In this document: piece after piece, positions 421 to 17,112 of the stretch
Layout of the letters: each line of letters starts with the position of its first letter
Position numbering within the stretch: the stretch's first letter is position 1
NCBI GenBank assembly: GCA_020725865.1
Contig: DYEC01000011.1
Span: 1 to 64,000 of the forward strand
DNA from: Anaerolinea sp.
GTDB taxonomy: Bacteria > Chloroflexota > Anaerolineae > Anaerolineales > Anaerolineaceae
DNA: 64,000 nucleotides
Reading direction: 5' to 3'
Program-made: the position numbers and the translations under genes
The notes under the pieces: generated by a model
Database searches by the model: none
Told to the model about the DNA's origin: nothing
Seen by the model: only the letters and a program-made list of their open reading frames with translations

Positions 421-1017
421 ATGGACAAGTCCATGTTCGTACAAGTAGAGGGTTTACGAGAGCTTACCCGGTTATCAGGACAATTTGATGACCTGAGCGA
501 AAAGGTTTACTTTCCAATTCATGATGCGATGGGGCAAGCCGGCAAACTGCTTGAAGACCAGATCAAGCAAAATCTGACCGACAATGACAGCGTAGCCACA
601 GGTGATTTGCGTGCCAGCGTGTCATCCAGCGAGGTAAAAATTTCAAAAGAGGCGATATTTGTGGAAGTTGGCGCAGGACGCGGGTTACCATACGCACAGG
701 CGGTGGAATACGGAACAAAGCCGCACACACCGCCGCTTTCGATTACAGAGCCCGGACAACCGCTTTATGAATGGGTGAAGATCAAGCAGTTAGCCGGCAC
801 ATACTCAGTAAGAACGGGCAGGCGGCTGGGGAGCAAAGCCAAACAGATTGATGAAAACCGCACAATGGCGCGGGCAATTTGGGCGCACATTCGCAAATAC
901 GGGACAAAGGCGCATCCATATTTTGCACCAGCAATTGAGCAGACCAGAGAACGGATTATGAAATTATTTGAAGAAGCCGTAGAAAAAATTGCGGAAAGTA
1001 TTCTGAAAAAGTCTTGA
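421..1017 (+). CDS. HK97 gp10-like head-tail / tail-completion protein
   Basis: A 198-residue protein of the HK97-gp10_like family, which joins the head-tail connector to the tail tube. Family features visible are 'ATGDLRASV' near residue 60, the 'YAQAVEYGT' motif with 'KPHTPP' near residue 95, and the closing 'YGTKAHPYFAPAIEQTRE' near residue 165, followed by a charged C-terminal helix. It is longer than the usual 120-150 residues because of an insertion between the two motifs. The ATG at 421 follows a poor Shine-Dalgarno sequence. In many phages this gene lies after the capsid genes; here it lies before them. Confidence 0.75.
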   Translation: MDKSMFVQVEGLRELTRLSGQFDDLSEKVYFPIHDAMGQAGKLLEDQIKQNLTDNDSVATGDLRASVSSSEVKISKEAIFVEVGAGRGLPYAQAVEYGTKPHTPPLSITEPGQPLYEWVKIKQLAGTYSVRTGRRLGSKAKQIDENRTMARAIWAHIRKYGTKAHPYFAPAIEQTRERIMKLFEEAVEKIAESILKKS

Positions 1018-1043
1018 CTTTTGCTGTTTGTTTGTTCTATAAT
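1014..1043 (+). promoter_or_regulatory. Strong sigma70-type promoter inside the head operon
   Basis: TTGACT (1014-1019), an 18-bp spacer and a perfect TATAAT (1038-1043). The -35 box overlaps the stop codon of the gp10-like gene. Predicted transcription start is about 1050, at the beginning of the structured leader RNA. Confidence 0.7.
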
Positions 1044-1049
1044 TGAATT

Positions 1050-1200
1050 GACAATTCAGCCCGGAAGGGCAGGCTGCAAACCGAGTCGCGGAAGAACCCG
1101 ATAGGAGCGCAGTAACACTCTCACAGAAAGCTGGCAGAGCCGGCGAGGGTAAGTGTGACCATCATCAGATGGGTGCTCTTACTTTCGCCGGCTTTTTGTT
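1050..1200 (+). ncRNA. Unclassified ~150-nt structured leader / small RNA with its own promoter and terminator
   Basis: The segment starts just after a consensus promoter and ends in a long terminator hairpin, with no plausible coding frame. It begins with a GCCC-GGAA-GGGC tetraloop hairpin (1059-1070). A middle domain can close through CTGC (1074-1077) and GCAG (1109-1112). GCTGGC (1130-1135) pairs with GCCGGC (1139-1144) in a short hairpin that excludes the left arm of the terminator. Mutually exclusive hairpins are the hallmark of an attenuator or riboswitch-like leader. It could control the protease-capsid genes directly downstream or act as a free small phage RNA. It does not match any RNA family I can recognise. 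Confidence 0.55.
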
Positions 1201-1204
1201 TTGG
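1138..1204 (+). terminator. Intrinsic terminator/attenuator just before the prohead protease RBS
   Basis: A perfect 9-bp stem, AGCCGGCGA (1138-1146) with TCGCCGGCT (1185-1193), continues inward through GTAAG/CTTAC and ACCATC/GATGGGT, and is followed by TTTTTGTTTT. The GGAGG ribosome-binding site of the next gene starts right at the end of the T-run, which fits attenuation of that gene. Confidence 0.75.
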
Positions 1205-2601: not shown

Positions 2602-4089
2602 ATGATTGACAATCTTTCTCAATTGACCCAACAGGCAATTGCCGAGTTTAAAAAGGCGCTGGCGCAGCCAATGGACCCGGCACAGTTGAAGAAAGCCGGC
2701 GTGACGCAGGCAACCGGATTAGTGGCATATGATCTGCAAGCGCCAGCCAAGAATCTGGTGCCGGTGCTGACGCCGATCCGCAACCGCACGCCGCGCGTTT
2801 CCGGCGGCGGAGGCACTTCGACCAACTGGAAGGCGGTTACCGGCATCAACACAGCCGGCTTGCGCGGGTTTGTGCCGGAAGGCGAACGCAACGGCGTGAT
2901 AACAACCGCGGTGCAGGATAAAAGCGCGCCTTACCGCACACTCGGACTTGAGGACAGCATTACCTTCGAAGCGGAGCGCGCCGCGGTTGGTTTTGAAGAT
3001 ATCCGTTCAACGCAGGCACAGCGTCTGCTTTGGGCGACCATGATCGAAGAGGAGCTCGCCGATCTGGGCGGCAACTATTCGGTTGCATTAGGGACGCCGA
3101 CTGCTCCGACCGTGACCGTGGAAAACTCGGGCGGCTCAATTGGCGCAGGCACATATAATGTGATTGTTGTGGCGCTGACGCTGTACGGTTACCTGGCTTC
3201 TTCACTGACGAACGGCGTTGTTGGTCAGGTGAGCGTTACACCAGCCAGTGGCGGTTCGGCATTTACATACGGCGGCGGCTCGTCTAACAAATCCCAAGCG
3301 ACCAGCACCGGCGCATTGACCGGTTCGACCAACGTGATCAAGGCTAAGGTGACACCAGTGCCGGGCGCGGTGGCTTATGCCTGGTATGTCGGCACAAGCG
3401 GTAGTGAATTGCTGCAGGCAATCACCACCATTAACAGCGTTGTCTTGACCAGTCTGGTCGAATCCGAGCGGCAGAATGCCAGCGCAATCACGGCGGATAA
3501 TTCCCGCAATTTGCTCAGCTATGACGGTATTCTGTATCAAGCTTGGGCAGACAATTCTGGCGCATATATCAAAAACATGGCAACCGGAACACCTGGCATT
3601 GGCACGGCATTATCTGCTTCCGGTGACGGCGGTATTACTGAAATCAATGAGATGTTCCGCTGGATGTGGGATAACTACCGGTTGTCTCCGACGCGCATCT
3701 ATGTCAATGCGCAGGAGGCGGACAATATCACCAAGAAAGTTCTGGAGGCGACCGCGGCACAGATTCCATATGTTACCGGCATGGAATTTACTGCCGGCAT
3801 GCGGGTGAAAAGTCTGCTCAACCGCTTTGCGATGGGCGTTGCTCCGGAAGTACCGCTGGAGATTCATCCCAACCTGCCGCCCGGCACGCTGGTGGCGGTT
3901 ACCGAGCAGCTGCCTTACCCGATTAATGGTGTACCCAACGTCATGGAGATGCGTCTGCGTCAGGATTACTACCAGATTGAGTGGCCGCAGCGCACGCGGA
4001 AGTATGAGAGCGGCGTGTATTTCGACGGCGTTTTTGCTCACTACTTCCCGCCCTCAATCGGGATTATTACCAACATCGGCAACGGATAA
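2602..4089 (+). CDS. Major capsid protein (HK97-like fold) with inserted Ig-like domain
   Basis: 495 residues. The N-terminal part ('VLTPIRNRTPRVSGGGG', 'GLEDSITFEAERAAVGFEDI') and C-terminal part ('ITEINEMFRWMWDNYRLSPT', 'IYVNAQEADNI', 'RQDYYQIEWPQRTRKYESGV') fit an HK97-type major capsid protein. Residues ~165-285, beginning 'PTAPTVTV' and containing 'PVPGAVAYAWYVGTSG', look like an Ig/fibronectin-like beta sandwich inserted into the capsid fold, probably displayed on the capsid surface. The position after the protease/scaffold gene and the size support the call. AGGAGA precedes the ATG. Confidence 0.85.
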   Translation: MIDNLSQLTQQAIAEFKKALAQPMDPAQLKKAGVTQATGLVAYDLQAPAKNLVPVLTPIRNRTPRVSGGGGTSTNWKAVTGINTAGLRGFVPEGERNGVITTAVQDKSAPYRTLGLEDSITFEAERAAVGFEDIRSTQAQRLLWATMIEEELADLGGNYSVALGTPTAPTVTVENSGGSIGAGTYNVIVVALTLYGYLASSLTNGVVGQVSVTPASGGSAFTYGGGSSNKSQATSTGALTGSTNVIKAKVTPVPGAVAYAWYVGTSGSELLQAITTINSVVLTSLVESERQNASAITADNSRNLLSYDGILYQAWADNSGAYIKNMATGTPGIGTALSASGDGGITEINEMFRWMWDNYRLSPTRIYVNAQEADNITKKVLEATAAQIPYVTGMEFTAGMRVKSLLNRFAMGVAPEVPLEIHPNLPPGTLVAVTEQLPYPINGVPNVMEMRLRQDYYQIEWPQRTRKYESGVYFDGVFAHYFPPSIGIITNIGNG

Positions 4090-16003: not shown

Positions 16004-16951
16004 TTACAGCCGCCAGTTGTCCACCGGTGAAGCGCGGCGGTGGGCGGCTTGGATATCGGTTTGTGCAATGTTCAGGTAACGGCGTACCATTTCAAGGGAC
16101 GAATGACCAAGAATACGCTGGAGCGTGAAGATATCTCCGCCATTGCGAAGGTATTCAATGGCAAAGGTATGGCGAAAGCGGTGAGGGTGGACATGTGGTA
16201 CGGCGGCAGATTTTCCTAATTGCTGTAACAGCGACCGAATCGAACTAAGCGACAATTGAAATAGTGGTTGTCTTGGGTCTATCTTGTTTTGACTGAGATA
16301 ATGCCACAAAGCCAACGATGTTTTTTTGCTGATTGGAACAATGCGCGATTTTGTTTTTTTGCCGGTGCCATAAGGCGAAACATAAATTTCCAACGCGTCC
16401 AGGCGGATATCGGCAACTTTTAGACGGCCTATTTCTCCCAGCCGTAAGCCAGTATCGAGCATAAGCAAAATCAGGGCGATGTTGCGTTTTGCGGTCTTAC
16501 GCCGCATTAGGACGATTTTGCCATTGCGTTGAGCGCGGGCAAATTCAGCAGCCTTGAGCAGCCGCTTGATTTCCTCTTCCGTAAAGGGCTGAATCTCCGG
16601 TGTGAAAAATTTCAGACGCGGTAAATCACTGGCAGGATTTTTGTCTATCAATCCGTTCTTGTGAGCCCAGCGAAAAAACGAGCGCAAGGCTTTCCAGTAA
16701 TTGTCTACGGCGCTGCTGCTTAGAGGTGAGCCTTTGCGGGTACTGTACTGGTCTCTCTCGGGTATATACTCAGTAACCAGATAATGCATAAACTGTTTGA
16801 GTGCGGCAGAGGTGATTTGTTTGAGTGGTAAATCGCCCAAGTGGCGTATTAAATGACGCAAAGCCGGGTGATAGGTGCGGTAGGCAGTAGAGGCAGAATG
16901 TTGCAAGGAGAAATCGAGTAAAAATCCTTCGACAGCTTTTGAAAGCAACAA
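16004..16951 (-). CDS. Tyrosine recombinase (prophage integrase)
   Basis: 315 residues. An N-terminal SAM-like arm/core-binding domain (~1-110) is followed by the catalytic domain with Arg170 ('LDTGLRLGEIGRL'), the HxxR box (His257, Arg260 in 'HPHRFRHTFA'), His283 ('ILGHSS') and the nucleophile Tyr292 ('VRRYLNIAQ'). All catalytic residues are present. The start is TTG at 16951 with AAGGAA upstream; it lies within an inverted repeat. The gene faces the tail genes and sits about 90 bases from the 3' end of tRNA-Gly, consistent with integration at that tRNA. Confidence 0.85.
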   Translation of the reverse strand: MLLSKAVEGFLLDFSLQHSASTAYRTYHPALRHLIRHLGDLPLKQITSAALKQFMHYLVTEYIPERDQYSTRKGSPLSSSAVDNYWKALRSFFRWAHKNGLIDKNPASDLPRLKFFTPEIQPFTEEEIKRLLKAAEFARAQRNGKIVLMRRKTAKRNIALILLMLDTGLRLGEIGRLKVADIRLDALEIYVSPYGTGKKTKSRIVPISKKTSLALWHYLSQNKIDPRQPLFQLSLSSIRSLLQQLGKSAAVPHVHPHRFRHTFAIEYLRNGGDIFTLQRILGHSSLEMVRRYLNIAQTDIQAAHRRASPVDNWRL

Positions 16952-17010
16952 GGCTGATATTCCTTTCTTCGGTATGATCTTAATCCGAAATCGTGAATAT
17001 CAGCCTTGTT
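16947..17010. repeat. Perfect 16-bp inverted repeat at the integrase start, similar to the tRNA anticodon arm
   Basis: AACAAGGCTGATATTC (16947-16962) and GAATATCAGCCTTGTT (16995-17010) are exact inverted copies 32 bases apart. The arm sequence AAGGCTGAT recurs at 17080-17088 and ATATCAGC at 17068-17075, inside the tRNA-Gly anticodon arm. The arms may be recombinase binding sites, so the integrase could repress its own gene or bind here during recombination. Confidence 0.6.
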
Positions 17011-17040
17011 TTTTGCGGGAGGTTGATATTGGCAAATAGG

Positions 17041-17112
17041 AGCGGGCGACGGGATTCGAACCCGCGGATATCAGCTTGGAAGGCTGATGCCTTACCGCTT
17101 GGCCACGCCCGC
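17041..17112 (-). tRNA. tRNA-Gly (anticodon UCC)
   Basis: The reverse complement folds as a 72-base cloverleaf: acceptor GCGGGCG with CGCCCGC, discriminator U, anticodon arm TCAGC-CTTCCAA-GCTGA, and T-arm with GGTTCGAATCC. No CCA is encoded. The 3' end points towards the prophage, the usual orientation for a tRNA used as an attachment site. Confidence 0.95.

Follow-up and report, generated by a model that had tools for sequence, protein, structure and literature searches.

Genes and features at the locus

The window analyzed here, a 64,000-nt stretch of an Anaerolinea genome whose base 1 is the first base of its contig, carries the right part of a prophage. The region of interest (1014–1204) is the gap between two genes on the forward strand. 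Upstream lies an ORF at 421–1017 for an HK97 gp10-like tail-component protein (Pfam PF04883, 1e-7; PHROG tail completion/Neck1), and downstream, preceded by the leader described below, is a gene at 1216–2592 (ATG at 1216) that by its sequence matches probably encodes the head-maturation protease. The head maturation protease label comes from PHROG families phrog_9427 (3.1e-10) and phrog_80; the same ORF has a better match to phrog_21715 (3.6e-15), a family without a function, and also matches phrog_617 (2.8e-10), named major head protein, with a Pfam Peptidase_S78_2 match under the cut-off. The next ORF (2602–4089) belongs to a PHROG family without a function (4.4e-124) and is presumed, from its position only, to encode the capsid protein. 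Further downstream are genes for a tape-measure-like protein, an endolysin and an integrase, the last of which (16004–16951, minus strand) adjoins a tRNA gene (17041–17112); this pairing of integrase and tRNA genes (16004–17112) probably marks the right end of the prophage. These neighbors on both sides agree with the preliminary description, which had placed the region in a prophage head operon. With the terminase of a relative as query, none was found in the genome of the window, a result that says little. The gene order in the relative G007 is terminase, portal, Mu F-like, gp10-like and leader, which places the leader inside the late operon.

Between the end of the preceding ORF (3–308) and the gp10-like gene, we also observed a stretch at 310–390 that is closed by CTCCGG/CCGGAG, contains inner hairpins and is 90% identical in one related locus (L020). 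We rejected it as a second structured RNA: its fold is no better than those of shuffled sequences (z of -0.24), and among the loci at hand it occurs only in L020 and L091, which are one contig.

Promoter and predicted structure of the leader RNA

A sigma-70-type promoter, TTGACT-N18-TATAAT, lies at 1014–1043 on the forward strand and agrees with the consensus at 11 of 12 positions, its -35 hexamer overlapping the stop codon of the gp10-like ORF. The number of promoter-like sites in the first 8 kb is not beyond chance (9, against 6.4 ± 2.9 in shuffles), yet the near-consensus promoter noticed earlier does stand out among them by score, the other eight agreeing at only 9 of 12 positions. Judging from the folding, with a start near 1049–1051 placed from the -10 element and an end given by the U-tract, the leader RNA probably spans 1050–1197. 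Its minimum free energy is -68.3 kcal/mol, compared to -47.8 ± 4.05 kcal/mol for 200 dinucleotide shuffles (z of -5.06), none of which was as stable.

The 5′ part of the RNA forms a predicted sensor domain of helices P1–P4. P1 (1059–1070, GCCC-GGAA-GGGC) is the hairpin with a GNRA-type loop that had been recognized before, and among the ten homologous sequences introduced below its C-G pair at alignment positions 4/11 is changed to G-C in four. The P2 stem (1073–1077 with 1109–1113) encloses a short helix P2b (1081–1082 with 1104–1105) and the P3/P4 hairpin (1086–1101), whose apical loop AAGAA contains an AGA (1093–1095) that is invariant in 10 of 10 leaders. The unpaired bases between the sensor helices, AG, GA/UA and AAC, are conserved as well.

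Downstream of the sensor, an antiterminator at 1117–1150 consists of P5 (1117–1122 with 1145–1150) and P6 (1130–1135 with 1139–1144, loop AGA at 1136–1138), as indicated by covariation and predicted folds. The preliminary description had reported a hairpin at 1130–1144 that excludes the left arm of the terminator; this hairpin, GCTGGC-AGA-GCCGGC, is present and its 3′ strand is common to the terminator, but P5, in which ACTCTC pairs with GAGGGT, had been overlooked, and because of this pairing the antiterminator is longer and the hairpin is its tip. The intrinsic terminator (1138–1202) comprises a hairpin (1138–1193), in which the 3′ strand of the antiterminator serves as the left arm, and a U-tract. 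It is a strong one and longer than noted earlier: folded from 1138, it has 16 continuous outer pairs, rather than the 9 bp reported, plus an inner stem (-39.3 kcal/mol). A consensus terminator scan did not list it, probably owing to the loop limit of the scan. The tract TTTTTGTTTT (1193–1202) follows the hairpin, and directly 3′ of it, where the ribosome-binding site of the protease gene had been placed, we read GGAGG (1203–1207), 8 nt before the ATG.

When the RNA of the window is stopped before the right arm of the terminator, the antiterminator is predicted to form (at 102 and 132 nt); at lengths of 108–126 nt, P5 gives way to a nearby alternative of similar energy and P6 stays. In the leaders homologous to this one, hereafter class A, P6 is predicted in all ten prefixes lacking the right arm, and the terminator is the minimum free energy structure of all ten full-length RNAs. 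P5 is formed only in part in the predicted prefixes of one of them (L021), where a helix between the 5′ end of the leader and the antiterminator strand was also predicted; we discarded this helix, for which no counterpart was seen by eye in the other leaders. The predicted folds, together with the covariation presented below, describe an antiterminator and an intrinsic terminator that are mutually exclusive and have a strand in common. In all ten class A leaders an invariant AGA loop is found in both the sensor hairpin and the antiterminator hairpin, and in the most divergent leader (L130) these two hairpins share only the AGA and not the letters of their stems. A leader peptide was considered and rejected: the single ATG between 1050 and the start of the protease gene, at 1169, is not kept in place in the relatives, by eye.

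Searches against Rfam 15 agree with the earlier statement that the RNA fits no known family. At gathering scores no family matched the leader, and the whole window gave two tRNAs only; at E ≤ 10, the leader region matched only three eukaryotic families, far under their cut-offs, and 12 related loci yielded one tRNA and nothing else. In the literature searched, where few subscription journals were covered, this leader RNA is not described, nor does a description appear in the accessible portions of PMC9378689, PMC3369931, PMC2864571 and PMC6606751. Comparative sequence analysis indicates that the leader is a real, conserved and new RNA family of attenuator kind, and we infer its function in the phage.

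Homologous leaders in related phages

Class A leaders precede the protease gene in nine other prophages or phage contigs. A BLAST search of 147 genomes of the family gave 11 with a match at E ≤ 0.01, including the window's own: four contain most of the leader (L009–L012), two match in the promoter, P1 and the terminator end only and belong to class B, described below (L013 and L014), and four were taken as chance (L015–L018). A profile search with the protease collected 59 loci from viral contigs and a further 12 from genome contigs. We then built a covariance model, R1, from six leaders and ran it over 69 sources, which gave 10 matches; L020, L021 and L028/L095, all outside the building set, scored 82–88 bits. 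Over a 400-genome sample of the order R1 gave five matches including the window's own, and over 396 genomes of the class only the window's own, both runs being over samples and with stricter filters that lose weak matches. One of the five matches in the order sample, L130 (63 bits, E of 9e-10), comes from another family of the order and is very divergent. We regard it as a true homologue because it occupies the same place, between a gp10-like gene and the protease gene that all class A leaders precede, and keeps the unpaired AGA, UA and AAC and the GNRA loop. Between its promoter and P1, L130 has an extra hairpin (about 1430–1490, GACGG..CCGTC by eye) that we did not see in the rest of class A.

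Named hosts of class A leaders are a Levilinea MAG, Anaerolineae bacterium Ch132, Thermanaerothrix daxensis and Anaerolineaceae UBA9135. The prophage in Thermanaerothrix daxensis (leader L080; G112, L131 16793–19452) looks truncated and may not be inducible; it seems to be without the part left of the Mu F-like gene, directly beyond which lie host-like genes; the RNA is kept. An exact-pattern search over the phylum found the leader in 1 of 400 genomes, which was the window's own. Other pattern matches (L094, L096–L115 and L117–L121), with surroundings lacking the rest of the leader, were taken as chance. Among annotated phage records, 109 have relatives of the protease and none gave a DNA match.

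Covariation supports both alternative structures

Covariation was counted in an alignment, A6, of ten distinct class A leaders, whose rows are related and were fitted to the model structure, toward which A6 therefore leans. MAFFT put the ACTCTC strand of L020, L021 and L095 in the wrong place (alignments A3 and A4), and A6 was used instead. Dropped before the count were L019 and L028, with the same leaders as L080 and L095 respectively, and L090–L093, which are the same contigs as L021, L020, L027 and L019; L025 has no upstream DNA.

Across P1–P4 and P5/P6, 97.5% of 285 cells are paired and 13 of 29 pairs show two-sided changes, a number reached by none of 500 shuffles and far from the 0 to 3 obtained with slid partners; further pair types were as high in 3 of 500 shuffles. 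RNAalifold on A6 returned the same 29 pairs. For the sensor alone, all 165 cells are paired and 8 of 17 pairs have two-sided changes (0/500 shuffles; pair types 23/500), and for the antiterminator alone the count is 5 of 12 pairs (0/500; covariation score 1/500, pair types 45/500). A large share of this signal comes from L130, which was found with the structured model to which A6 was then fitted, and on which alone 8 of the 13 two-sided pairs depend. Within P3/P4, 5 of 6 pairs have two-sided changes, four of these in L130 only. With L130 removed, 5 of 29 pairs remain two-sided, as many as in 35 of 500 shuffles; the sensor retains 3 of 17 (71/500 as high) and the antiterminator 2 of 12 (175/500). 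The number of paired cells without L130 still exceeds that of all shuffles for the whole structure and for the sensor, but not for the antiterminator (46/500). Exceptions to the pairing are a non-standard P5 pair in L021, L095 and L130, a broken outermost P6 pair in L082, L027 and L080, and C-C at the innermost P6 pair of L130, beside the loop.

In the strand shared by antiterminator and terminator, three columns have changed together with both partners. Given as strand:antiterminator:terminator, these changes are C:G:G to G:C:C in L130, C:G:G to T:A:A in L020, L021, L095 and L130, and T:A:A to C:G:G in L095; two of the three columns are thus independent of L130. Such three-way covariation is the signature of a transcription attenuator and is hard to account for unless both structures matter. 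The riboswitch- or attenuator-like architecture first proposed from the letters of the window is supported by its homologues, with the reservation that much of the signal comes from L130. Of the covariance search suggested in the preliminary description, the comparison of homologues showed covariation, and the Rfam part returned no family match.

Other leaders at the same site and enrichment of terminators

Unrelated leaders of similar layout precede the protease gene in related phages, and we sorted these into classes B, C and D. Class B comprises distinct RNAs in close relatives (L081 2830–2985 in Bellilinea caldifistulae, L022 2839–2983, L024 760–904 and L029 2854–2987; duplicates are L083, with the same RNA as L081, and L023 and L026, the same as L022). 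These share with class A the promoter and, except in L029, the P1 hairpin; the rest is unrelated in sequence and attenuator-like, with another long stem and an inner AGGACG..CGUCCU-like hairpin that recurs in the antiterminator hairpin, as a close copy in L022, L024 and L029 and as a loose one in L081. Class C is represented by L038 (708–833), where we see by eye a consensus sigma-70 promoter (TTGACA-N16-TATAAT), a leader of about 125 nt and a terminator, and where a GUGUCC/GGGCGC antiterminator is predicted; the upstream DNA of L040 is identical. Class D leaders belong to more distant phages (upstream of position 3001 in L030, L032, L034 and L039, and of 2001 in L158). By eye they share an element resembling ACG-GGUGUUGAACGGCC and, immediately ahead of the protease gene, a strong terminator, with an antiterminator that folds clearly in two of the five (L158 and L032). 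In two more loci, L165 and L169, other leaders again are combined with a terminator.

We counted a terminator wherever the 130 nt before a start codon contained a hairpin at least as stable as -10 kcal/mol with a T-run after it. The 83 loci considered were listed by hand from those fetched, leaving out contig duplicates, N-terminal-only relatives (L073–L077, L084–L089), and L151 and L152, among others; dropping near-duplicates and loci with less than 150 nt of upstream DNA left 53. Such a terminator stands before the protease gene in 21 of these 53 distinct loci, compared to 7 of 188 other ORF starts in the same loci (Fisher, 1.6e-10), and without classes A and B in 9 of 40 compared to the same 7 of 188 (P of 3e-4), both P values being too good since related phages are counted as independent. 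L130 and L158 were scored as lacking a terminator, but by eye both have one, either farther upstream or with a broken T-run. With 32 of the 53 protease loci scored negative by the script, the arrangement is common but not general. The enrichment before the same protease in diverse phages suggests a principle wider than this one RNA.

Proposed mechanism and significance

We think it probable that the leader is a cis-acting transcription attenuator, off by default, that gates the protease gene and the genes after it and is released by a trans-acting factor. The choice between antiterminator and terminator is supported by the sequence comparisons above; the factor, the direction of control and the transcription itself are what we infer. 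RNA polymerase would start at the 1014–1043 promoter in the lysogen too. By default, the more stable terminator would take the place of the antiterminator, with release of a short, roughly 150-nt RNA, so that the protease gene and those following it (presumed capsid, tail) would stay off; we take the terminator as the default because it is the most stable state in all ten class A RNAs. A factor that recognizes RNA, most probably encoded by the phage and produced upon induction, would bind the AGA-loop hairpins of both sensor and antiterminator, and by holding the antiterminator would let transcription continue into the head operon. That the AGA loop is invariant in both hairpins suggests that one factor reads both, and the echo of one hairpin by the other in class B, in other letters, speaks for a hairpin-binding protein over a small ligand. 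We found no trans-acting factor for the leader. Because RNA polymerase arriving from the upstream head genes must also cross this terminator, the element could control the protease gene and those after it independently of the promoter in use. It may also tune dosage rather than act as an on/off gate.

A wider reading is possible, which we put forward tentatively: that across a broad group of temperate phages, quickly replaced attenuator RNAs gate the head operon. The same site would carry at least four sequence-unrelated leaders (A–D), all having a promoter, sensor and antiterminator of their own, and in classes A and B the antiterminator would repeat the sensor hairpin, letting a single RNA-binding factor recognize the two. 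If true, this would be a general RNA gate for late genes that evolves by exchange, much as repressor/operator pairs are swapped between phages. Control of late genes is little known outside model phages, and the leader is a concrete RNA element that may decide the timing of head making in phages of Anaerolineae. A phage protein in the role of the trans-acting factor would be a new late antiterminator directed by RNA.

Alternative explanations and comparison with known systems

The features of the leader can be read in other ways. Its own promoter, strong terminator and structured body would suit a stand-alone small RNA of about 145 nt that targets host or phage mRNAs in trans and lies before the protease gene by chance; such an RNA needs neither a conserved antiterminator nor three-way covariation nor, in classes A and B, a constant place before the protease gene, and we hold this to be very unlikely. 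As in transcriptional riboswitches, a sensor domain is followed by a choice between antiterminator and terminator, and if the sensor were an aptamer, a metabolite or ion would set that choice. The compact domain with its conserved unpaired AG, GA/UA and AAC, the antiterminator strand directly after it and an expression platform resembling those of riboswitches all fit. However, the leader differs from riboswitches in matching no Rfam family, the leader-length class A matches whose context was inspected all precede the head protease gene and no metabolic gene, and the unrelated replacement leaders of classes B–D would need a different aptamer each time, which makes a riboswitch unlikely in our judgment.

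Two phage systems have to be weighed together with these. In phage lambda, the late promoter pR′ is followed by a short leader, the 6S RNA, then by the terminator tR′ and the late genes. The order of promoter, leader, terminator and late genes is the same here, so that the promoter could be a constitutive late one, the short terminated RNA could be extended by a Q-like protein loaded via promoter DNA, and the folds would be secondary. According to the accessible text of PMC6606751, Q loads through promoter DNA; it requires a site to bind between -35 and -10 as well as a -10-like sequence within the first transcribed bases. When a script takes the best upstream site of each class A and B leader, it agrees with the promoter consensus at 10 or 11 of 12 positions in 14 of 14, and TGTTC or TGTGC (TGTKC) closes the spacer before the -10 in all 14. 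A -10-like AACAAT or GACAAT near the transcript start is found in 8 of 14 but is missing in six (L078, L079, L080, L021, L095 and L130), and by eye no Q-site-like direct repeat is conserved in the class A/B promoter spacers. Lambda-type control would leave unexplained the covarying sensor domain and antiterminator that set this leader apart, and we consider it distinctly unlikely. The put RNA of phage HK022 acts by direct binding to RNA polymerase, which then reads through terminators, and a leader that, like putL (PMC9378689, accessible part), has two stem-loop domains in tandem shortly after a phage promoter might do likewise. This structured RNA after a phage promoter is the only resemblance. 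As described there, put is about 70 nt long, has two stem-loops and serves early promoters in early operons, and that part of the source describes no competing antiterminator hairpin, whereas the leader has one that shares a strand with its terminator; this last contrast is with put as described there. We regard a put-like action as highly improbable.

The probable attenuator with a trans-acting factor would work like the antitermination controlled by ANTAR proteins (EutV/NasR/AmiR). In the accessible part of PMC3369931, the target RNAs of these proteins have a pair of small hairpins ahead of an intrinsic terminator, together with a mutually exclusive alternative structure, hexanucleotide loops whose first base is A and fourth is G, and linkers of 5–12 nt between the hairpins in the Enterococcus faecalis eut genes. 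We rejected the leader as an ANTAR target on both loop and linker: its loops are AGA triloops or pentaloops (3 or 5 nt, in 10 of 10) and not hexanucleotides, and its first hairpin is nested in P2 and ends at 1101, about 28 nt before P6 starts at 1130. The ANTAR protein family PF03861 matched nothing in the genome of the window, but nothing in 14 control genomes either. What the leader has in common with these targets, as far as they are described there, is the presence of two small hairpins and of a terminator set against an exclusive alternative.
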